A stretch of DNA of 34,420 nucleotides, taken from Acidobacteriota bacterium. GTDB lineage: Bacteria; Acidobacteriota; Vicinamibacteria; Vicinamibacterales; JAFNAJ01. Below the pieces are notes generated by a model that made no database searches, was not told where the DNA came from, and saw nothing but the letters and a program-made list of their open reading frames with translations. Of this stretch, positions 4,418 to 31,235 are shown one piece after another. Numbering within the stretch: position 1 is the stretch's first letter; the number at the start of each line of letters is the position of its first letter. Made by a program: the position numbers and the translations under genes. Location of the stretch: the NCBI GenBank assembly GCA_016789685.1, contig JAEUQQ010000545.1, positions 1 to 34,420 of the forward strand, given 5' to 3'.

Positions 4418-4903
4418 ATGTCGATCAGTCACGAGACTTACAGGCAGGTCCTTGCACACTGGGCCAGTGGCGTCACCGTCGTGACGTCGCGTGGCGCCGG
4501 CGGCCCCGAAGGGCTCACCGTCAGTTCATTCGCCAGCGTCAGCCTCGATCCTCCGCTCGTCCTGGTGTGCGTCCACCACGGCGCCTCGACGCTGGCGGCC
4601 ATCGACGCGTCGAATGCGTTTGCCGTGAACCTGCTCGCCGCCGACCAGGTCGAGTTGGGGCGGCGGTTCGCCGGATTGCTGCCCGGCGTCACGAATCGCT
4701 TCGATGGCATCGCGACGACACAGGCCGTGACGGGAAGCCCACTGGTGCCCGAGGCCCTGGCGGTGATCGATTGTCGCGTCTGGCGATCCCTCGACGCGGG
4801 CGATCACCGCATCGTCATCGGCGAGGTCGTGTACGCCTCTGCCCGCGAGGGTGCGCCTGTTCTCTACCACGACCGCGGCTGGCGCCGGCTGGCCCGGGAC
4901 TGA
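4418..4903 (+). CDS. flavin reductase-like FMN-binding protein
   Basis: This 161-residue protein matches the flavin reductase-like (split-barrel FMN-binding) family, which reduces FMN or FAD with NAD(P)H or forms the reductase part of two-component monooxygenases. Family features are the start HWASGVTVVTSRG, the strand GLTVSSFASVSLDPPLVLVCV that contacts the flavin phosphate, FAVNLLAADQ near the middle, and the end GDHRIVIGEVVYA...PVLYHDRGWRRL. ATG 4418 follows an AAGGA box at 4402-4406. The gene is divergent from the thioredoxin-fold gene and has no adjacent monooxygenase partner, so its physiological substrate is unknown. Confidence 0.88.
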   Translation: MSISHETYRQVLAHWASGVTVVTSRGAGGPEGLTVSSFASVSLDPPLVLVCVHHGASTLAAIDASNAFAVNLLAADQVELGRRFAGLLPGVTNRFDGIATTQAVTGSPLVPEALAVIDCRVWRSLDAGDHRIVIGEVVYASAREGAPVLYHDRGWRRLARD

Positions 4904-5082
4904 GCGCACCCGGTCGCGCCTGGCGCCCTCGCCGCTCTCGTTGGTGGAGCCACCGGCTCGCAGCATCCCGACGAGGAGGGCAGAGGCACCGGCGATGCAC
5001 TCGCGCGGCGCGGCGACCGGCACGCGAAATCGTGTGCAGCCCAGCGGCGCCTTTGCTACTGTGTTGCCAACGCCGGTCCGCA

Positions 5083-7104
5083 ATGCGCGCAGGCCACGCC
5101 CGCTACTTCTCGGCTCCCGTCCCACTCCCCGCGGCGCCACTGCTCTATCGGATCAGCATCGTCCTCGTCGCGATGGCGATGATGCTCCTGCCCGTGCTCT
5201 ACGCGGCGCTCGTCGCGGTGTTCGCGTGGGCGGTCTGGCAGTATGCGACTGGCGTGTTCCCGGCCGCACTCGACCATGTGCGTCACTGGCAGCTCATCGC
5301 CATCGTGGCGGTGCCGATCCCCGCCGGGGTCATCGCCATCGTCTTCCTGCTGAAGCCATTCCTGGGACGGCGACAGGCGCCGGAGGCGCCGCAGTCTCTC
5401 GTGCGCAACGAGGCGCCGGCGCTGTTCGACCTCGTCGAGCAGTTGTGCGATGCCCTCGGGGCGCCTCGCCCGTCGCGCATCGATGTCGACGTGCGCGTCA
5501 ACGCATCGGCGAGCCTGCGGAGCACCTGGACGGGCCTGCTCTCGAACGACCTGGTGCTCACGGTGGGGTTGCCCCTCGTCGAAGGGTTGACGCTGCGGCA
5601 ATTCGCGGGCGTCCTTGCGCACGAGTTCGGCCATTTCTCGCAGGGCGCCGGGATGCGGCTCGGGCACGTGATCCGATCCATGAACGCGTGGTTCGCGGGC
5701 GTGGTGTTCGGTCGCGACCACTGGGATCAGCGGCTCGACCAGTGGAGGCACGAGGGCCAGGCCTGGTTCATCCAGTTGCTGGGTCTCGCCGCCGCATTGT
5801 GCGTGCGGGTGTCGCGGGCCGTGTTGACGTTGCTCATGAAGGTGGCCCACGCACTCAGCATGTTGTTGTCGAGGCAGATGGAGTTCGACGCCGACCAGGC
5901 AGAAGCGCGCGCGGTGGGCAGTGCGACGTTCGTCGAGACGTCGCGTCGCCTGCACGTCCTCGACATGGCCAACCACTGGGCGCACGCCGACCTGCGGGTG
6001 GCGTGGCGATCGCGCCGGCTCGGCGACGACTTCCCGGCCCTGGTCCAGGCCAACCTGCGCCAGATTCCTCCCGCCGACGTGGAACGGATGCTCGAAGCGG
6101 CCGTCCATTCCTCGCCCGGCATGTACGACTCGCACCCTCCGACCGATCAGCGCATCGCGCGGGCGACATCACCTCCGTGGGACGGAACCTTCGTCGGGGA
6201 TGGCGACGCGCGTGCCCTGTTTGCCGACTTCAAGGCGACGTGCGTGGAAGCGTCGGCGCGCTACTACGCACAGTTGCTGCCGGGCGAGTTCTCGCCAGAC
6301 CTGCTGGAGCCCAGCGAGGATGTGGCGGCTGCGGGTGCCGAAGAAGCGGCGCGCTCGCGCGCCCGCGTCGAGTACTTCGGGCACGCGTTCGACTCGGGTT
6401 GCTGGCTGGTCTTGCCTGCGCCGAACGCGTCCGACAATCCAGAGGCGGCGTTCGCTGGCTCGCGTGCCGAAGTCGCCGCCGCGGTGGGCGCACGCACGGC
6501 GTACGACCAGGTGGTCGCGCGGTTGCTCGAACTGCAACGTGTGCGCGCCATCGTCGACGCTCAGTTGCCGCTTCGCGCCGAGGAGTTCGGGCTCGCCGAC
6601 ATGGCACCCTCGACCGTCGACGCGGCGATCGCCCGCCAGGCCCGCGAACGCACGGCGCATCGTCACGCGCTGGCGAACGCGTGTCCCTGCCTGCTCGAGC
6701 ACCTCGCGTCGGTGCTGCCGGCCGCACCGCCTGACGTCGTCTCGCTCCTCGACGTGCTCGAGCAGAACGAGCCGCAGTTCGTCGCGCTCGCCGGCGACGT
6801 CGAAGCGTTGTCGGCCCTGATGTCGTTGCGCGGACCCGATGGTGACCAGGTACTCGCGAGCGCCGAGGGGCGGGCGCACGAGCGGCTGGGCCGATCGCTG
6901 GCGACCCTCCGAGCCGCGCTCGAACGTCATCTCGACCCCGTGCCCATCCACCTCGACGTCATCGAGCGCGCACAGATCACGCTCGACCACTCTGCTGCCC
7001 TCTACGCAAACGCGCTCGCCAGCCTTGCGATGCACGCCCTCGAGTGCGCGCGACCCCAAGGGGCCGGAACGTCGGCGCCGAAGCTCCACATGGCCGGGAA
7101 CTGA
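5083..7104 (+). CDS. large membrane-bound M48-family metalloprotease
   Basis: This is a 673-residue protein with two predicted membrane segments near the N-terminus (about residues 22-55 and 68-91), then a peptidase M48 catalytic domain. The zinc motif is HEFGH (180-184), and the third ligand lies in EFDAD (267-271) after another hydrophobic stretch (about 228-263). The C-terminal 350 residues form a charged, alpha-helical region without a recognised motif. It is much longer than HtpX or Ste24-type M48 enzymes; the motif HEFGHFSQ is typical of a long bacterial M48 subgroup. ATG 5083 is the first start consistent with the membrane segments; the frame further upstream is shadow sequence. A TACTGT hexamer at 5057-5062 may be a -10 element. 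Confidence 0.85.
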   Translation: MRAGHARYFSAPVPLPAAPLLYRISIVLVAMAMMLLPVLYAALVAVFAWAVWQYATGVFPAALDHVRHWQLIAIVAVPIPAGVIAIVFLLKPFLGRRQAPEAPQSLVRNEAPALFDLVEQLCDALGAPRPSRIDVDVRVNASASLRSTWTGLLSNDLVLTVGLPLVEGLTLRQFAGVLAHEFGHFSQGAGMRLGHVIRSMNAWFAGVVFGRDHWDQRLDQWRHEGQAWFIQLLGLAAALCVRVSRAVLTLLMKVAHALSMLLSRQMEFDADQAEARAVGSATFVETSRRLHVLDMANHWAHADLRVAWRSRRLGDDFPALVQANLRQIPPADVERMLEAAVHSSPGMYDSHPPTDQRIARATSPPWDGTFVGDGDARALFADFKATCVEASARYYAQLLPGEFSPDLLEPSEDVAAAGAEEAARSRARVEYFGHAFDSGCWLVLPAPNASDNPEAAFAGSRAEVAAAVGARTAYDQVVARLLELQRVRAIVDAQLPLRAEEFGLADMAPSTVDAAIARQARERTAHRHALANACPCLLEHLASVLPAAPPDVVSLLDVLEQNEPQFVALAGDVEALSALMSLRGPDGDQVLASAEGRAHERLGRSLATLRAALERHLDPVPIHLDVIERAQITLDHSAALYANALASLAMHALECARPQGAGTSAPKLHMAGN

Positions 7105-22630: not shown

Positions 22631-22636
22631 TACAAT
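22631..22636 (+). promoter_or_regulatory. -10 element directly before folP (leaderless start)
   Basis: TACAAT lies 7 nt before ATG 22644, the usual distance from a -10 box to a transcription start. Its -35 region would overlap the right arm of the palindromic element (GTGACC at 22610-22615). Confidence 0.6.
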
Positions 22637-22643
22637 GGCGCGC

Positions 22644-23525
22644 ATGCATTCGTACCATGTGCCCCTCGCGCACGGACGCGCGCTCGTGCTGGGGCCGCGC
22701 ACCCTCGTCATGGGCATCCTCAACGTGACCCCTGACTCGTTTTCTGACGGGGGGCGCTACGCGAGTGTCGAGGCCGCTGTCGAGCGCGGGCGACGCATGC
22801 TGGCCGAGGGGGCCGACATCCTCGACATCGGGGGCGAGACGACCCGCCCGGGCGCGACACCCATCTCGGCAGACGAGGAATGGCACCGCGTTGGCCCCGT
22901 CGTCGAGGCCCTGGCCTCGACCACTGGAGCGATTCTCTCGATCGACACCTACAAGGCCGACGTGGCCAGGGCCGCGATCGACGCCGGCGCGTCGCTGATC
23001 AACGACATCAGCGGACTCCAGTACGACCCGGCACTCGCCGGCGTCGCCGCCGCGACCGGCGCGGGCCTGGTGCTGATGCACATGCGTGGGAGGTCGGGCG
23101 ACATGTACTCGGCCGCCACCTACGACGATGTGGTCGACGAGGTGGCCAGGGAACTCTGGGAGGCCCTGATGCGCGCGCACGACGCAGGCGTGCCGCGCGA
23201 AGCCATCGTGCTCGACCCAGGCATCGGCTTCGCCAAGCGCGCCGGCCACAGCCTCAGCCTGCTGGCGCACCTCGACGCAGCGCCCCTGGCGGCGCTCGAG
23301 CGCCCGTGGCTGCTCGGGCCCTCGCGCAAGTCGTTCCTCACCGCGTCGATCGGCGAGGTCGCGCCGGCCGAGCGCGACTGGGCGACCGCGGCTGCGGTCA
23401 CCGCCTCGGTGCTCTACGGCGCCCATGTCGTGCGCGTCCATCGGGTTGCGGAAATGGTGCAGGTCGTGCGGGTGGCGGATACAATCAGGGCCGCACGCGC
23501 GGGAGGTCGCCCGACGGGGGCCTAG
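22644..23525 (+). CDS. folP: dihydropteroate synthase FolP
   Basis: FolP joins para-aminobenzoate and dihydropterin pyrophosphate to make dihydropteroate in folate synthesis; it is the sulfonamide target. The 293-residue protein has all the expected TIM-barrel loops: MGILNVTPDSFSDGG, DIGGETTRPGA, SIDTYKADVARAAIDAGA, NDISGLQYD, VLMHMRG, LDPGIGFAKR, LLGPSRKSFL and the C-terminal VRVHRVAEM. ATG 22644 fits the leaderless promoter; ATG 22635 overlaps the -10 box and is unlikely. It heads a run with cdaA, cdaR and glmM. Confidence 0.97.
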   Translation: MHSYHVPLAHGRALVLGPRTLVMGILNVTPDSFSDGGRYASVEAAVERGRRMLAEGADILDIGGETTRPGATPISADEEWHRVGPVVEALASTTGAILSIDTYKADVARAAIDAGASLINDISGLQYDPALAGVAAATGAGLVLMHMRGRSGDMYSAATYDDVVDEVARELWEALMRAHDAGVPREAIVLDPGIGFAKRAGHSLSLLAHLDAAPLAALERPWLLGPSRKSFLTASIGEVAPAERDWATAAAVTASVLYGAHVVRVHRVAEMVQVVRVADTIRAARAGGRPTGA

Positions 23526-23562
23526 CCCGGCACCGTCGCCCGGCGTGCACTTCGGCAAACAC

Positions 23563-24387
23563 ATGGACGCGCTGCAGACCTACCTCAGCCAGCTCCCCCT
23601 CACGTGGTGGGATGTCGTCGACCTCCTGGTCGTCGCCGTCGTCATCTACGAGGGGTTGAAGCTGATCCGTGGCACCCGCGCCGTGCAGATGGCGATCGGG
23701 TCGCTGCTGCTCGTCCTGCTGTACTTCTTCTCGCGCTGGGCGCCGCTGCAGACGGTCAACTGGGCCATCCGCAACATCATCGGCTACGTGGTCTTCGCCG
23801 GCATCGTCCTGTTCCAGTCCGACATCCGGCGCGCCCTGGCCCACTTCGGACGCGCCCCCGTCTTCCGCTACTTCCAGCGGCGCAACGCGCCGGTCGACGA
23901 CGTGATCGAGGAACTGGTGGTGGCCGCAACGATCCTCGCCGAGAAGCGACTCGGCGCGATCATCGCCATCGAGCGTGCGATCGGCCTGCGAAACTACATC
24001 GAGTCGGGGATTCCCCTCGACGCCACCGTGACGCACGACCTGCTGATCAGCATCTTCCAGACGAGCGCCCCCCTCCACGATGGCGCGGTGATCCTGCAGG
24101 AAGATCGACTGGCTGCGGCGGCGTGCTTCCTGCCGCTGACCGTCAATCCGCAGCTGTCGCGTGAACTCGGGTCGCGCCACCGCGCCGCCATCGGCCTCAC
24201 CGAAGAGAACGACGCGATTGCGCTCGTCGTGTCTGAAGAGACCGGGAAGATCTCGCTGGCGCTCGAGGGACGCATCGAACGTGGCCTCGGCGCCGACCTG
24301 CTGCGCGCGCGGCTCACCGAACTGATCACCGAGCGCCGGCCCACGAACACCCGCGGCGAGCGACGTCGCGAGATGGGGGGGATGTGA
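23563..24387 (+). CDS. cdaA: diadenylate cyclase CdaA (c-di-AMP synthase)
   Basis: CdaA makes the second messenger c-di-AMP from two ATP. The 274-residue protein has three N-terminal membrane helices (about residues 14-32, 40-57 and 66-85) and a DAC domain. The catalytic motifs are DGA at 173-175 (LHDGAVIL) and RHR at 205-207 (GSRHRAAIG), both intact, followed by SEETGKISLA. ATG 23563 is chosen; GTG 23545 is an in-frame alternative. Its stop overlaps the ATG of the YbbR gene (TGATG), the classic cdaA-cdaR pair. Confidence 0.97.
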   Translation: MDALQTYLSQLPLTWWDVVDLLVVAVVIYEGLKLIRGTRAVQMAIGSLLLVLLYFFSRWAPLQTVNWAIRNIIGYVVFAGIVLFQSDIRRALAHFGRAPVFRYFQRRNAPVDDVIEELVVAATILAEKRLGAIIAIERAIGLRNYIESGIPLDATVTHDLLISIFQTSAPLHDGAVILQEDRLAAAACFLPLTVNPQLSRELGSRHRAAIGLTEENDAIALVVSEETGKISLALEGRIERGLGADLLRARLTELITERRPTNTRGERRREMGGM

Positions 24388-25301
24388 TGGCCTACCATCC
24401 CTTCAGGAACCCCGGTCTCAAGCTCGTCTCGGTCGTGCTGGCCACGTTGCTGTGGTTGACCGTCTCGCGCGACCAGGTCGTGGAACGCAGCGTTCGCGTG
24501 CCGCTCGAGTTCCAGAACGTGCCCGAGGGCATCGAAATCGTCGGCGACCCGCCCGGGACGGTCGACGTGCGCGTGCGCGGGGCGTCTGGGCAGGTCAGCC
24601 GCATCGAGGCGGGAGAGATCGTGGCGGTGCTCGACCTGCGCGGCGCGCGCGCCGGGCAGCGGCTCTTCCACCTCCTGACCGACCAGGTGCGGGCACCCTT
24701 CGGCGTCCAGGTCGCACAGATTTCGCCGCCCACCGTCTCGCTTGCGTTCGAACGCTCGGGGGCCAAGGTCGTCCCGATCACCCCGGCGATCGAGGGCGCG
24801 CCCGCCGCAGGCCACGTCGTCGGCAAGATCACGAGCGAGCCGGCGGTCGTCGAGGTCATCGGGCCAGAGAGCCGGCTCAAGCTGCTCACGGAGGCGACCA
24901 CCGAGCCGATAAGCATCGAGGGAGCCTCGCGGACCGTGCGCGACGTCGTGACCGTGGGCGTCGAGGATGCGGCGCTGCGACTGCGCGAAGGCCGCACCGC
25001 GAGCGTCACGGTCACCATCCCGGCGGCGCCCATCGATCGCGCGTTCACGGGAGTGGCCGTCAGGTTGCGCAATGTCGGGCAGGGGTTGCGGGGACGGGTC
25101 GAGCCCGCCGCCGTCACCGTGATGCTCCACGGGCCCGGCGACATCGTGCGGGCGATCGAGCCGCGCGGCTTCGACGTGTATGTCGACCTGGCCGACCTGC
25201 GTCCGGGTCGCCACTCGGTTCCGGTGAGGCTCGATGGCATCCCCGACGGCATCGCCGTGGCGCGGATCGAGCCCACGATGGTGCAGGTGAGGATCCAGTA
25301 G
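24387..25301 (+). CDS. cdaR: YbbR-domain protein, CdaA regulator CdaR
   Basis: The 304-residue protein has one N-terminal membrane helix (about residues 11-27, LKLVSVVLATLLWLTV) followed by about three extracytoplasmic YbbR repeats (roughly 30-118, 122-205 and 212-304), each with the pattern VxVxVPLEFxNVPEG...DVRVRG or VxVTIPA...VTVMLHG. In Firmicutes the cdaA neighbour CdaR binds and tunes the cyclase. Here the ATG overlaps the cdaA stop. A GTG at 24384 is also possible. The regulatory role is inferred from context. Confidence 0.92.
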   Translation: MAYHPFRNPGLKLVSVVLATLLWLTVSRDQVVERSVRVPLEFQNVPEGIEIVGDPPGTVDVRVRGASGQVSRIEAGEIVAVLDLRGARAGQRLFHLLTDQVRAPFGVQVAQISPPTVSLAFERSGAKVVPITPAIEGAPAAGHVVGKITSEPAVVEVIGPESRLKLLTEATTEPISIEGASRTVRDVVTVGVEDAALRLREGRTASVTVTIPAAPIDRAFTGVAVRLRNVGQGLRGRVEPAAVTVMLHGPGDIVRAIEPRGFDVYVDLADLRPGRHSVPVRLDGIPDGIAVARIEPTMVQVRIQ

Positions 25302-25377
25302 CGGCCGCACGTCGTGCGGCCGGTAACGGTGCGACCACAATCCCGGACCGCGTTCCCCGGCGGCCCAGGCAGGACAC

Positions 25378-26718
25378 ATGGCTGAGAAACTGTTTGGCAC
25401 CGACGGCGTCCGTGGCAAGGCCGGGGAGTACCCGCTCGATCCGCCGACCGTGGCGCGGTTCGCGGCCGCCCTCGTCAAGGCGTTGCCGTATTCGTCGTCG
25501 ACGGGCGCGCGCATTCTGGTCGGGCGCGACACCCGCGAATCGGGGACCTGGATCGAGCGCGAGATCGCCCGTGGCGTGCGCGGAATGGGCGCGCGGCTGA
25601 CCTCGGCGGGCGTGCTGCCGACGCCGGCGACGGCCTACCTCACCAAGTCGATGGAGTTCGACGCTGGCATCGTGATCTCGGCGTCGCACAATCCGTTCGA
25701 AGACAACGGCATCAAGGTGTTTTCGGGCGAAGGCGAGAAGTTCGACGAAGACCTCGAAGCGCACGTCGAGTCGGTGATGGCCGACCCGTCGTGGGTCGTC
25801 GATGCCGAGCACGGGCCGCCCGTCGAGCAGCGCGACATGGTGGCCAGCTACATCACGCATGCCAGGACCGCGCTCACCGACATGTCGGCCCTGCGCCGTT
25901 CGAAGGTCGTGGTCGACTGCGCGAACGGGGCGACCGTCACCGTGGCGCCGCGGCTGTTCCGCGACCTCGGGTTCGACGTGACCCTGCTCGGTGCGACCCC
26001 CGATGGCCGCAACATCAACCTCGGGTGCGGCTCGACGCATCCCGAACACGTGGCCAACGCCGTCCGCGAGGGCGGGCACATCCTCGGCGTCTCGTTCGAC
26101 GGTGACGGCGACCGGTGCATTCTCGTCGATGGCAATGGCCAGATCATCGACGGCGACGCGATCATGCTGATCCTCGCGCGGCACATGAAGATGCACCGCG
26201 AGCTGAAGGGCAACACGGTCGTGGCCACGGTCATGAGCAACATCGGTCTCGAACTCGCGCTGGCCAGGCACGACATTGCGATGGTGCGCACGCCCGTCGG
26301 CGACAAGTACGTGGCCGACGTCATCGCCAAGAACGACTACGCCCTCGGCGGCGAGCAGTCGGGGCACATCATCCTGTCTGACTACCTCTTCACCGGCGAC
26401 GGCATCGTGACGGCCCTCGCGGTGTTGCGCGTCATGGCCGACACCGGGCGGTCGCTGGCCGACCTGGCGGCCGAGTACGTGCGCTACCCGCAGGTCCTGC
26501 TCAACGTGCGCGTCAAGGAGCGCCGCGACATCACGCAGGTGCCCGCGCTCGTCGACGTCATGCAGCGCATCGAGGCCGAACTCCACGGCAACGGCCGCCT
26601 GCTGGTGCGGTACTCGGGCACCGAGCCCCTGCTGCGGATCATGCTCGAGGGGCAGGACCAGGCGCAGATTCACGCCTGGGCCGAAGAGATCGCCTCGGTC
26701 GCGCGCGCGGCCCTCTGA
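25378..26718 (+). CDS. glmM: phosphoglucosamine mutase GlmM
   Basis: GlmM converts glucosamine-6-phosphate to glucosamine-1-phosphate for UDP-GlcNAc and peptidoglycan. The 446-residue protein has KLFGTDGVRG at the start, the phosphoserine loop SASHNP with Ser103 as the phosphorylated residue, the metal loop DGDGDR at 241-246, the sugar loop GGEQSGH and the phosphate loop RYSGTEPLLR. AGGAC precedes the ATG. The cdaA-cdaR-glmM order is conserved widely, and CdaA and GlmM interact physically in some species, so c-di-AMP and cell-wall precursor supply are probably linked. Confidence 0.98.
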   Translation: MAEKLFGTDGVRGKAGEYPLDPPTVARFAAALVKALPYSSSTGARILVGRDTRESGTWIEREIARGVRGMGARLTSAGVLPTPATAYLTKSMEFDAGIVISASHNPFEDNGIKVFSGEGEKFDEDLEAHVESVMADPSWVVDAEHGPPVEQRDMVASYITHARTALTDMSALRRSKVVVDCANGATVTVAPRLFRDLGFDVTLLGATPDGRNINLGCGSTHPEHVANAVREGGHILGVSFDGDGDRCILVDGNGQIIDGDAIMLILARHMKMHRELKGNTVVATVMSNIGLELALARHDIAMVRTPVGDKYVADVIAKNDYALGGEQSGHIILSDYLFTGDGIVTALAVLRVMADTGRSLADLAAEYVRYPQVLLNVRVKERRDITQVPALVDVMQRIEAELHGNGRLLVRYSGTEPLLRIMLEGQDQAQIHAWAEEIASVARAAL

Positions 26719-27015
26719 CCCCTCCCCGGCCCCGCTGATTTGGGTGGAATCGGCGGGCGGCGCTCCATTTTGCACACCGAGCCGAATCCTGGCGACGCCA
26801 GCGGAACGGCGAACCCCGGCTCGCCGGTGGTGGTCAACGGCCGAGGTGGGGGAGGGGGGGCTGCCGGGTGAATCCCCGCGGTATGATCCGGAATCCAATG
26901 ATCGCGGTCGGCTCTGCCGGCCGCGCCTGGCTGCCGCCGCCTCGCCCGTGAGGGCGTCAGCTATACTGAAACGTGATCTGCCGGTGTTGCCGGCACCAAC
27001 CGAGAGATACGACGA
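26719..27015. other. longest gene-free stretch, promoter region of the Fe-S carrier gene
   Basis: No convincing gene is present in this 297-bp gap; a 94-codon open frame on the plus strand has no recognisable features. Two -10-like hexamers are seen on the plus strand: TATGAT at 26882-26887 and TATACT at 26962-26967. The second would give a leader of about 42 nt for the downstream gene. No strong -35, and no clear Fur or IscR operator palindrome, could be picked out by eye. Confidence 0.5.
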
Positions 27016-27345
27016 ATGGTCAACGTGACGACACTCGCGGCCGAGAAAATCAACGAGCTTCTCGCCGATGAACAGAAGCCGGGCGCCGGCCTGCGCGTGT
27101 TCGTGCAGGGTGGCGGATGCTCGGGGTTCCAGTACGGCCTCATCATCGAGGAAAACGGCGCGTCGCCCGACGCCGACTCGGTGTTCCAGTCGAACGGCGT
27201 GACGCTCTACGTCGATCCCATCAGCGCGCGGTACCTCAAGGGCGCCGAGGTCGATTTCGTCGATAACGTCGCCGGCGGCGGGTTCACCATCCGCAACCCC
27301 AACGCGAAGTCGACCTGCGGGTGCGGGTCGTCGTTCAGCGCCTGA
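27016..27345 (+). CDS. erpA: A-type iron-sulfur cluster carrier (ErpA/IscA family)
   Basis: The 109-residue protein belongs to the HesB/IscA/ErpA family, which carries Fe-S clusters to target enzymes. The three ligand cysteines are present: Cys35 in GGGCSGFQYG, and Cys101 and Cys103 in STCGCGSSF at the C-terminus. The length and the sequence FVDNVAGGGFTIRNPNA fit ErpA better than SufA, although the subfamily cannot be certain from sequence alone. The next gene is a Fur-rubrerythrin fusion 68 bp downstream, so the pair may serve iron and oxidant homeostasis together. Confidence 0.93.
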   Translation: MVNVTTLAAEKINELLADEQKPGAGLRVFVQGGGCSGFQYGLIIEENGASPDADSVFQSNGVTLYVDPISARYLKGAEVDFVDNVAGGGFTIRNPNAKSTCGCGSSFSA

Positions 27346-27413
27346 GTTCGCGCGCACCTGGTCCCCGCGACGCCGCCCCGCCGGCCTCGCGGGGGCCCTC
27401 TGCACGGTCACCG

Positions 27414-28391
27414 ATGGACTCACCTGCCGACTTCGTCGAGAGCCGCCGGCCCGCCGGGTCGAAGCGATCGGGCAAGCGTGACTTCATCGTCGACACGTTC
27501 CTGGCGCAGACCGGCCACCTGACGGCCGACGATCTCGTTGCCCTCATCCGCAAGGCCGACAGCCGCATCAGCCGCGCCACCATCTACCGCACGCTGCAGT
27601 GGATGGTCGATGCGAAGATCGCGCAGAAGGTCGACTTCGGCGAGGGACGCTCGCGCTACGAGCGCGCCTATCGACACCCACGGCACTTCCACCTGATCTG
27701 CGAAGCCTGCCACCGGTCGTTCGAGTTCCTCAGCTCCGACATCGAGTCGATGCTCGACGAGGTCGTCGAGTCACGCGGTTTCGAGGTGCACAAGGCCACC
27801 ATCCAGGTGCACGGCACGTGCGAGCGGTGCCGCACGGGCTCATCGACCAGAGACGACGAGGGATCGACCGAGCGTCTCTTTGCGCGGGACGCGTTGCGTG
27901 TCGCGATCGCGACCGAGAAGAGCGGGCTGGCGTTCTACACGCGGGCCGCGCGGATCGTGCGCGACGCGCGCGGCAAGCAGGTGTTCCTGAAGCTTGCCGA
28001 CGAAGAGAAGACGCACCTTGCGACCCTGCAGAAGCGCTACGACGAGCTGCTCGCCGAGGATCCGCAGCTCGATTCGCGTCCGGCGTTCCTGTTCTTCAAG
28101 GGCGCGGCCAACGGCATCTTCGCATCGGGCGTCGAGGAACTCGCGGCCGGCGTCGATGACCGCAAGGCGCTGCTGATCGGCATCAGGTGCGAGCGCGGAT
28201 CGCACAAGTTCTTCAAGAAGTACGGCGACAGGTTCGAGGACTCGGAAGGCAAGCGCATCTTCCTCGAGTTTGCCGACGAAGAGAAGCAGCACATGGACCT
28301 GCTCGTCGCGGAGTTCAAGGCCCTCAACGCGCGGATCGTGTCGGCCCGCAAGCGACGTCCCAGCCAGGCGCGCTCCACGCAGGCACGGTGA
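27414..28391 (+). CDS. Fur-family repressor fused to a rubrerythrin-like diiron domain
   Basis: The 325-residue protein has two domains. Residues 20-140 are a Fur/PerR-type winged helix and dimerisation domain: ISRATIYRTLQWMVDAKIA is the recognition region, H88-x-x-H91-x-H93 lies in the metal-sensing segment, and two CxxC pairs (C96/C99 and C136/C139) form the expected structural zinc site. Residues 155-305 are a ferritin-like four-helix bundle with two symmetrical diiron half-sites: E168 with E198-K-T-H201, and E260 with E290-K-Q-H293. There is no rubredoxin domain. ATG 27414 fits the first Fur helix. The Fur part should bind DNA, while the diiron part could sense or reduce peroxide or bind iron. 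The frame is continuous, so this is a genuine fusion. Confidence 0.9.
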   Translation: MDSPADFVESRRPAGSKRSGKRDFIVDTFLAQTGHLTADDLVALIRKADSRISRATIYRTLQWMVDAKIAQKVDFGEGRSRYERAYRHPRHFHLICEACHRSFEFLSSDIESMLDEVVESRGFEVHKATIQVHGTCERCRTGSSTRDDEGSTERLFARDALRVAIATEKSGLAFYTRAARIVRDARGKQVFLKLADEEKTHLATLQKRYDELLAEDPQLDSRPAFLFFKGAANGIFASGVEELAAGVDDRKALLIGIRCERGSHKFFKKYGDRFEDSEGKRIFLEFADEEKQHMDLLVAEFKALNARIVSARKRRPSQARSTQAR

Positions 28392-28450: not shown

Positions 28451-29179
28451 ATGACGTCTTCGCATGCAGGCGGTGTCACCGCCATCGAGATCGACGGCAT
28501 CGTCAAGGACTACCGCGGTCTCCGTCCGTTGCGCGTGACGGCGCTGCGCGTGGCGCGCCGTGAACGCGTCGCGCTCTCGGGCCTCGATGCAGCCGGCGCC
28601 GAGGTGCTCGTCAACCTGATCAACGGCGCGGGAGCCCCAGACCAGGGCGTCGTGCGCGTCAACGGCCGCTCGACAGCCGATATTCCCGATGCCGAGGCCT
28701 GGCTGGCGTCGCTCGAGCAGTTCGGCATCGTGACGACTCGTGCGGTGCTGCTCGAGGGATCGACCGTCGCGCAGAACCTCGCGATTCCCTTCACGCTGGC
28801 AATCGACGGCCTCACCGCCGACGTGCTCGAGCGCATCGCCGCGCTTGCTGAGGAAGTGGGCATCTCGACCGCGATGCTCGACCTGCCGATCGCGCAGGTG
28901 GGGGCCGACGTGCGCCTGCGCGTGCACTTCGCCAAGTCGCTGGCCCTCGGGCCAGACCTGCTCCTGCTCGAACATCCGACCCTCGGGCTCGAGCCGGCGC
29001 AGACGCCGGCGTTTGCGGCCGACGTCGTGCGGGTGTGCGAGGTGCGGGGGCTCACGGCGCTCGCCATCTCGAACGATCAGGCGTTCATCCAGGCCGTGGC
29101 AACCCGGGCCCTCTCGCTGGTGCCCGCGACCGGTGAACTCGTCGAACCACGCTGGTGGCAGCGCTGGTTCGGTTTCTAG
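28451..29179 (+). CDS. degenerate ABC-type ATPase domain protein, probably catalytically inactive
   Basis: The 242-residue protein has the overall order of an ABC ATP-binding subunit: IEIDGIVKDYRGLRPLRV, ERVALSGLDAAGAEVLVNLI, GVVRVNGRSTADIP, then LGPDLLLLEHPTLGLEP. Every catalytic motif is changed. The Walker A site (about 43-51) lacks GK(S/T), the signature LSGGQ is replaced by QVGADVRLR (about 149-157), Walker B reads LLLLEHP instead of hhhhDEP (170-176), and the switch His is replaced (ISND, 206-209). Overall it is closest to MlaF-like domains. ATG 28451 is likely; GTG 28388, overlapping the previous stop, is possible. It may act as a regulator or as a structural partner. Confidence 0.75.
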   Translation: MTSSHAGGVTAIEIDGIVKDYRGLRPLRVTALRVARRERVALSGLDAAGAEVLVNLINGAGAPDQGVVRVNGRSTADIPDAEAWLASLEQFGIVTTRAVLLEGSTVAQNLAIPFTLAIDGLTADVLERIAALAEEVGISTAMLDLPIAQVGADVRLRVHFAKSLALGPDLLLLEHPTLGLEPAQTPAFAADVVRVCEVRGLTALAISNDQAFIQAVATRALSLVPATGELVEPRWWQRWFGF

Positions 29180-30407: not shown

Positions 30408-30517
30408 TGAGGACGAAGCGGCGGCGGGCTGATCCTCAACCCACGCGCTCCGAGCCTCGCGCTCGCGTGCACCTGACACGCGGGCGCATTGTGGCTTGTT
30501 CCAGTTAGGTTGTCGGC

Positions 30518-30546
30518 AGTCTAGGGTGTTCCCAATAGCGAGTCAA
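30518..30546 (-). promoter_or_regulatory. sigma70-type promoter of the csp gene
   Basis: On the minus strand, TTGACT (30541-30546) and TAGACT (30518-30523) are separated by exactly 17 bp. Transcription would start near 30511, giving a 5' leader of about 150 nt. This is the best consensus promoter in the window. The -35 box overlaps the end of the upstream acidic ORF. Confidence 0.8.
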
Positions 30547-30761
30547 GGCCGGAAACCGGCGGGGCCGACAATCCACTCCGGTTCCTCATCCTCATCCTCA
30601 TCCTCATCCTCATCCTCGTCATCGTCCTCGTCGTCTTCGTCGTCCTCATCCGCCTCGTCGTCGGGGGTATCCCAGGGGATGTCGGACAGCGACAGCACGC
30701 GCGCGCAGGCAGCGGCCGGCGGCGCCTGCGGTGATGACCAGGCCGGCGTGACGCGCGTCAC
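30543..30761 (-). CDS. small poly-acidic protein
   Basis: The 72-residue frame has a plain N-terminus (MTRVTPAWSSPQAPPAAA), a middle segment VLSLSDIPWDTP, an uninterrupted Asp/Glu tract of about 25 residues and the end EPEWIVGPAGFRP. GTG 30761 overlaps the TGA of the zinc-ribbon gene (GTGA), which suggests translational coupling and argues that the frame is real. No family is recognised. The acidic tract is encoded by a hexanucleotide repeat. It could be a nucleic-acid mimic or an interaction tail; no function can be assigned. Confidence 0.55.
   Translation of the reverse strand: MTRVTPAWSSPQAPPAAACARVLSLSDIPWDTPDDEADEDDEDDEDDDEDEDEDEDEDEEPEWIVGPAGFRP
30584..30613. repeat. hexanucleotide tandem repeat inside the acidic ORF
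   Basis: Five exact copies of CCTCAT run from 30584 to 30613, followed by degenerate CTC/GTC-type triplets to about 30660. Read on the minus strand they encode Asp-Glu pairs. Unit gain or loss would change tract length without shifting the frame. Confidence 0.9.
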
Positions 30762-31222
30762 GACTCGGTCCCGGGAGGGGGCGTGGATGGCGCCGGCGCG
30801 GGGGGCGCTGCCAGCGGTTCAGCCGGAGTGGCTGTGGTTGGGGCAGCCTTGGGGGCCGGTGCCGGCGGCGTCGCGGCAGGCGTGGCGTCAGCAGATGTCG
30901 CCGGCGCTGCGGTTGGTGCCGCTGCTGCCGCAGCGGGCGTCGTGGCGGCTGGGGCCGCTGGCCTGGCCGCCGCGGGCTTGGCCGGTGCCGGCTTCGCGCC
31001 TGCCGGTGCGGCCGGCTTGGGCGGGGCCACCGTTGCCGCCGGGTGCGTCGTCCAGAAATGGCGTGCGCAACGCGGACAGACCCAGAACTGCTGCGGAGCC
31101 CACGGCGTGCCCGGCGCGGGGTCGCGCAGATCCATCGCGGTGCCGCAGCGTTGGCACGTCAGCGAGTGCGGTTTGGCAGGAACTTCGGGGGCAGCGGGAG
31201 TTGCGAGCGCGTCGTCGGCCAC
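30758..31222 (-). CDS. zinc-ribbon protein with long Ala/Pro-rich tail
   Basis: The 154-residue protein has a four-cysteine zinc ribbon near the N-terminus (LTCQRCGTAMDL, then WVCPRCARHFW) and a tail of about 90 residues made almost only of Ala, Pro, Thr and Lys. The ribbon resembles small MJ0042-like or transcription-factor-type ribbons. The tail is low-complexity and may be a disordered linker. I chose GTG 31222 because a TATCAT hexamer lies 7 nt upstream and no Shine-Dalgarno is present; a longer frame from TTG 31270 would run through that promoter. Its TGA overlaps the start of the acidic ORF. Confidence 0.65.
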   Translation of the reverse strand: MADDALATPAAPEVPAKPHSLTCQRCGTAMDLRDPAPGTPWAPQQFWVCPRCARHFWTTHPAATVAPPKPAAPAGAKPAPAKPAAARPAAPAATTPAAAAAAPTAAPATSADATPAATPPAPAPKAAPTTATPAEPLAAPPAPAPSTPPPGTES

Positions 31223-31229
31223 GATGGGG

Positions 31230-31235
31230 ATGATA
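31230..31235 (-). promoter_or_regulatory. -10 element directly before the zinc-ribbon gene
   Basis: TATCAT on the minus strand is 7 nt before GTG 31222, the spacing expected of a leaderless mRNA. The divergent nucleotidyltransferase gene starts only about 30 bp away. Confidence 0.5.

Follow-up and report, generated by a model that had tools for sequence, protein, structure and literature searches.

What does a Fur-type repressor gain from a ferritin-like domain carried on the same chain, and would such a protein read iron, peroxide or both? Few bacterial regulators have been studied as much as Fur, and ferritin-like diiron proteins are likewise well known, but a gene of an acidobacterium, here named fur-rbr, joins the two. 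The gene lies in a stretch of 34,420 nucleotides of a draft genome (hereafter the window) from a member of an order that we take to be the Vicinamibacterales. Neither a Fur protein fused to a diiron domain nor its operator was reported in the open-access papers searched.

Domain architecture of the fusion

The sequence-only reading described a single frame that joins a Fur repressor to a four-helix bundle, and this description holds. The open frame of fur-rbr (Table 1) encodes 325 amino acids followed by a stop codon, and both Pfam families were found above their cut-offs in the one protein, a full Fur domain being followed by a four-helix ferritin-like (rubrerythrin/erythrin) domain. FUR (PF01475) matched residues 14-132 (E 6e-25; 88.2 bits against a cut-off of 23.1), and Rubrerythrin (PF02915) matched in two stretches, with a whole-protein E of 9e-13 and 49.2 bits against a cut-off of 22.8. 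The latter family was also matched at E <= 0.01 in all 12 fused members scanned, and the best NCBIfam match of the fur-rbr protein was Fur. An AlphaFold2 model of the chain, built with 58 homologs, had a mean pLDDT of 92.9 and a pTM of 0.86 and was confident over nearly the entire chain. Its N-terminal part resembled Fur structures (TM up to 0.85), while the folds nearest to the C-terminal bundle in Foldseek were those of erythrin-like proteins, Dps and bacterioferritin; among the matches listed for this part, all had E above 0.001 and most a probability of 0.9-1.0. The erythrin-like proteins 1vjx and 2fzf were sequence-profile matches to the C-terminal domain as well (E about 1e-11).

Within the order, residues 249-303 are the most conserved part of the protein (80% mean identity), so that helices C and D are on a par with the DNA-binding domain (76%). 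Residues 213-248 are 69% conserved, and identity falls to 35% in the linker region (residues 142-155) as against 70-80% on its flanks.

Table 1. Positions in the window of the fur-rbr gene, its domains and the upstream elements
Feature	Position	Strand	Basis or remark
-10-like hexamer TATACT, presumed erpA-fur-rbr promoter	26962..26967	+	conserved TATAAT-like hexamer
erpA, A-type Fe-S cluster carrier, first gene of presumed operon	27016..27345	+	NCBIfam ErpA equivalog
erpA to fur-rbr gap, 68 bp	27346..27413	+	terminator-like site absent on this strand
fur-rbr, whole fusion gene, 325 aa + stop	27414..28391	+	open frame, Pfam, AlphaFold2 model
Fur domain, aa 14-141, winged helix with R59	27453..27836	+	Pfam, ligands, fold match
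Variable linker, aa 142-151	27837..27866	+	low conservation
Ferritin-like helices A and B, aa 152-215	27867..28058	+	half-site E168/E198/H201; helices 152-181 and 185-215 in model
Helix B-C crossover, aa 216-248	28059..28157	+	AlphaFold2 model
Ferritin-like helices C and D, aa 249-314	28158..28355	+	half-site E260/E290/H293; helices 249-273 and 278-314 in model

Distribution and authenticity of the fusion

Of 40 genomes from the order, 37 carry the full-length fusion, at 55-68% identity, and one more (38 in total) has it split by contig ends. Among them is the single contig, 7,480,314 bp in length, of a finished relative that we take to be Luteitalea pratensis HEG_-6_39, in which the fusion is intact. 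The genome of HEG_-6_39, a subdivision-6 acidobacterium, was finished with PacBio and Illumina sequencing (PMC4882960). As the window belongs to a draft assembly of 777 contigs, one might ask whether a sequencing or assembly error had fused a fur gene to a rubrerythrin gene. The same single frame in dozens of genomes, the finished one among them, rules out a joining error as the origin of the fusion and makes its probability negligible.

In a sample of 247 genomes from the phylum, every member of the order carried the fusion, as did 22 of the 223 others, which fall in nine families; one of these 22 has its Fur part masked by a run of Ns. A scan of one genome per species, whose profile drew on non-order fused proteins only and which is a poor guide to other phyla, returned additional fused relatives in Acidobacteriota MAGs, one match in a MAG labelled Acidimicrobiia and one in a MAG labelled Aminicenantes. 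A search for proteins with both domains, as the sequence-only reading had advised, thus found them across the order and in a minority of other sampled Acidobacteriota. The expectation that the fusion would be uncommon is borne out overall, and the fusion was found only in Acidobacteriota save for one Acidimicrobiia-labelled MAG, but the expectation fails within the order, where the fusion is near-universal.

A single origin of the fusion is compatible with the tree (p-AU 0.27, or 0.50 without long branches). A mobile origin was rejected, as close relatives of fur-rbr were absent from viral contigs and no match was found in plasmids, and a split ancestral state was likewise rejected, since none of 22 unfused fur genes had a ferritin-like gene within about 3 kb.

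Metal sites and class of the Fur part

The Fur S2 iron site (H35/E83/H91/H93/E104) and the zinc site (C96/C99/C136/C139) are invariant in all 69 aligned fused proteins. The third Fur metal site is gone in the order, which has R90, F92 and no His at position 128; this position is His in most fused members outside the order. Fur and PerR can be told apart by an Arg and a Glu in Fur, which are Asn and Asp in PerR (PMC8638851). The fusion possesses R59 in helix H4 and E104 in the iron site, both in the Fur state and invariant in the 69 proteins, in place of the helix H4 Asn and regulatory-site Asp of PerR. By these residues fur-rbr is a Fur-type regulator, and because residue 104 is Glu rather than Asp, the Fur site itself is unlikely to read peroxide. 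The fusion is the sole Fur-family protein in 10 of the 20 order genomes searched. The order's remaining Fur-family proteins are mostly PerR-like, with PerR as the best NCBIfam match of the paralogs; in the window genome, the second Fur-family gene is PerR-like and stands directly before katG.

The predicted diiron site and ligand loss in one family

The two half-sites picked out in the sequence-only reading (Table 1) are indeed present and invariant in the 37 order proteins, and 61 of the 69 fused proteins have the full set of six ligands (four Glu, two His). Such invariance makes it likely that the site is filled with metal. The eight ligand-deficient proteins, each short of at least one ligand, all group in one family, f41, where they make up eight of nine members, and they retain the Fur sites and the fold; the ferritin-like domain can therefore persist when the diiron site is incomplete. 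The ferritin-like part of f41 diverged faster than the DNA-binding part (47-53% identity vs 88%), which is what a relaxation of constraint after the loss of ligands would produce. This family may mark either a loss of diiron input or a point in favor of a structural role, and it offers natural ligand-loss variants for probing the role of the site. The proteins concerned (L046, L049-L053, L063 and L083) apparently represent several independent losses.

True rubrerythrins carry an extra helix-C Glu (ExxE), which swaps with a His on redox change. This seventh ligand is absent here: position 263 is never Glu in the 69 proteins, being Ser in the order and Ala, Ser, Asn or Thr in the other fused proteins. 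The fur-rbr protein lacks a rubredoxin domain by Pfam, and rubredoxin was undetected in 20 of 20 order genomes, a control search being positive in 7 of 14. Because single-domain rubrerythrins exist (PMC5114695), the absence of rubredoxin alone does not exclude membership of that family; its absence from the 20 genomes counts against a rubrerythrin-type peroxidase. With the helix-C Glu never present and rubredoxin undetected, the predicted site appears closer to the bacterioferritin-like 4-Glu/2-His type than to that of a working rubrerythrin. The same evidence weakens the earlier suggestion that the regulator might destroy the signal that it senses.

Apart from fur-rbr, the window genome encodes a single rubrerythrin-family protein, which stands alone and is 192 amino acids long (L155:3325-3903, minus strand). 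A gene for an Rrf2-like regulator, as judged from reading its sequence, lies nearby at 4776-5345.

A predicted operator before iron-uptake genes

A conserved 7-1-7 palindrome, TGAGACTNAGTCTCA, was first found upstream of feoB in relatives. At up to one mismatch it occurs at 19 sites in 24 order genomes, compared with one for the reversed control, and it is likely an operator. The sites examined lie 20-230 bp before genes for TonB-dependent receptors and FTR1 iron permeases and before feoAB; one precedes a TonB-dependent receptor in the window's own genome (L265; C27:805-819), and a few precede the gene for a CbiX protein or for an outer-membrane protein to which Pfam assigns no family. In other parts of the phylum, the palindrome stands immediately before unfused fur genes or fur-feoB operons, and the unfused Fur proteins L291, L293 and L294 share with the order's fusion the recognition helix ISRATVYRTL or ISRATIYRTL. 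Because the box precedes both iron-uptake genes and unfused fur genes, some with the same helix, it is firmly tied to acidobacterial Fur by sequence comparison.

We infer that the fusion protein itself reads TGAGACTNAGTCTCA. In five genomes with such sites (G009, G010, G014, G016 and G019), the fusion is the only Fur-family protein. In genomes with two such proteins, the other one could be the reader, and no site at up to one mismatch was seen in the fusion-bearing G001, G003, G005, G007, G012 and G017. Outside the order, the fused proteins carry another recognition helix, and the box that they read may be a different one. The predicted operator provides an immediate basis for a binding assay.

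In three genomes (L272, L273 and L276), the gene behind the predicted Fur box encodes the outer-membrane protein that lacks a Pfam family, which may be an iron porin that has escaped recognition. A box close to the classic PerR sequence, CGATAATCGTTATCA, is located about 120 bp before a PerR-like gene of a relative (G004:C51:4724-4738), as distinct from the TGAGACTNAGTCTCA used by the order's iron-uptake genes.

The erpA-fur-rbr locus

The Fe-S carrier gene that had been noted 68 bp before fur-rbr was confirmed at that distance and is erpA by its NCBIfam equivalog (133 bits vs a cut-off of 117). In each of the 37 order loci it immediately precedes fur-rbr in the same orientation, 3-235 bp apart from it, so the two genes probably form one co-transcribed operon. 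A TATAAT-like hexamer occurs within 120 bp of erpA at all 37 loci, and because a strict sigma-70 scan gave zero matches, the presumed promoter rests on this -10 conservation. Beyond the two genes the loci differ; class I fumarase, an Fe-S enzyme, is encoded upstream of erpA in 14 of the 37.

The proposal that erpA is a likely target of the regulator fared poorly. The classic Fur/PerR box was absent from the window at up to three mismatches and from the window genome at up to two. Upstream of erpA there was no excess of palindromes, and TGAGACTNAGTCTCA matched no better there than in shuffled sequence. As no Fur box was found upstream of erpA in 37 genomes and the predicted operators stand before iron-uptake genes instead, erpA lacks support as a target, and erpA and fur-rbr look co-transcribed rather than autoregulated. 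Outside the order, the fused genes have varied neighbors; in one clade of five, a TonB-dependent receptor gene adjoins the fusion.

Discussion

By a little more than an even chance in our judgment, fur-rbr encodes the order's Fur repressor of iron uptake, equipped with a second, diiron-based sensory domain in its C-terminal, ferritin-like part. Binding of Fe(II) in the S2 site would cause the dimer to occupy TGAGACTNAGTCTCA and to repress the genes for TonB-dependent receptors, FTR1 permeases and FeoAB. The four-helix bundle that follows would hold two irons between its two E-ExxH half-sites, and the loading of this center or its oxidation by O2/H2O2 would serve as a second input that alters the grip of the Fur part on DNA, so that iron uptake would respond to the redox state of iron as well as to free Fe(II). 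Because the protein would be made together with ErpA from a promoter lacking a Fur box, an ample supply of iron should not lower its level. Direct sensing by the predicted diiron center is plausible; signaling from this center to the Fur part is the least certain step of the proposal. More tentatively, and at somewhat below even confidence, the chain may combine two dissimilar iron sensors, with free Fe(II) read at the mononuclear Fur site and iron redox state or O2/H2O2 at the ferritin-like diiron site, the two together setting the repression of iron uptake throughout the order.

Other roles for the appended domain deserve to be weighed against a sensory one. It could have a catalytic role, as a peroxidase or ferroxidase that clears H2O2 or Fe(II) beside the Fur site and thereby protects the regulator or destroys its signal, as the Rubrerythrin family match, the complete 4-Glu/2-His site and the erythrin-like, Dps and bacterioferritin folds would allow. 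We consider this unlikely, given the missing helix-C Glu and rubredoxin, the poor bulk enzyme that a low-copy regulator would make, and the separate peroxide defense of the window genome, with its PerR-like gene and katG. Quite unlikely, too, is a purely structural part, in which the domain aids dimer folding or larger assemblies and its metal has no signaling role. The f41 proteins, whose ligands have decayed while fold and Fur sites remain, are consistent with this, as is a model that packs both domains as one unit; however, all six ligands are fixed throughout the order and kept by nearly all fused proteins elsewhere, which argues for a role of the metal, as does the faster divergence of the f41 domain. 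A PerR-type peroxide sensor with an accessory domain is far less probable than either. Fur and PerR share a fold and the diiron domain resembles peroxide-reactive proteins, but R59 and E104, the contrast in NCBIfam matches between the fusion (Fur) and its paralogs (PerR), and the placing of the predicted operator before iron-uptake genes all speak for Fur.

Compared with the Fur proteins of Bacillus, E. coli and Magnetospirillum, the fusion has the same complete domain, Zn(Cys)4 site, S2 iron site and R and E discriminators, and it is predicted to have the same 7-1-7 operator layout and iron-uptake targets. It differs in its 17 kDa ferritin-like domain, in the third metal site lost from the order's fusion, in an operator that reads TGAGACTNAGTCTCA rather than the TGATAATNATTATCA of known Fur, and in its presumed co-transcription with erpA from a promoter of its own without a Fur box. 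The closest solved relatives of the C-terminal domain, in both sequence and fold, are erythrin-like proteins (TM1526/1vjx, 2fzf and COG1633/2oh3), which stand alone and are uncharacterised, whereas in fur-rbr the domain is joined to a DNA-binding regulator. Rubrerythrin has in common with it the Pfam family, two ExxH motifs and the long B-C crossover, and differs in the rubredoxin domain and seventh ligand discussed above. A ferritin-like diiron module is likewise attached to another function in the DJ-1/PfpI fusion 3fse, the iron exporter MbfA and the trifunctional protein PRK12775, but none of these contains a DNA-binding regulator domain. Hemerythrin-based diiron sensors, such as FBXL5, DcrH and the hemerythrin-diguanylate cyclases, use a diiron domain to report iron or oxygen to an output domain. 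They are work-alikes only, with a hemerythrin fold, unrelated output domains and no homology to fur-rbr.

Our analysis suggests an order-wide fusion that reads iron, and perhaps oxygen, in two ways at once. The fusion is the standard, and often the only, Fur of an abundant soil lineage, and if its diiron site signals, one protein would integrate iron level and iron oxidation.

Other features of the window

Upstream of erpA, positions 22635-26718 encode in a row dihydropteroate synthase, a diadenylate cyclase with a DAC domain, YbbR and GlmM, a c-di-AMP (cdaA-cdaR-glmM) cluster; among the loci compared, glmM abuts erpA only in the window genome. Downstream of fur-rbr, positions 28451-29179 encode an ABC-ATPase-like protein whose Walker A region reads GLDAAGAE, without GK(S/T), possibly a pseudo-ATPase, and a homolog with a similarly degenerate motif is found near fur-rbr in several relatives. 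Farther on, positions 30496-31233 contain a low-complexity open frame with a long serine run, the opposite strand of which encodes an acidic Asp/Glu run.
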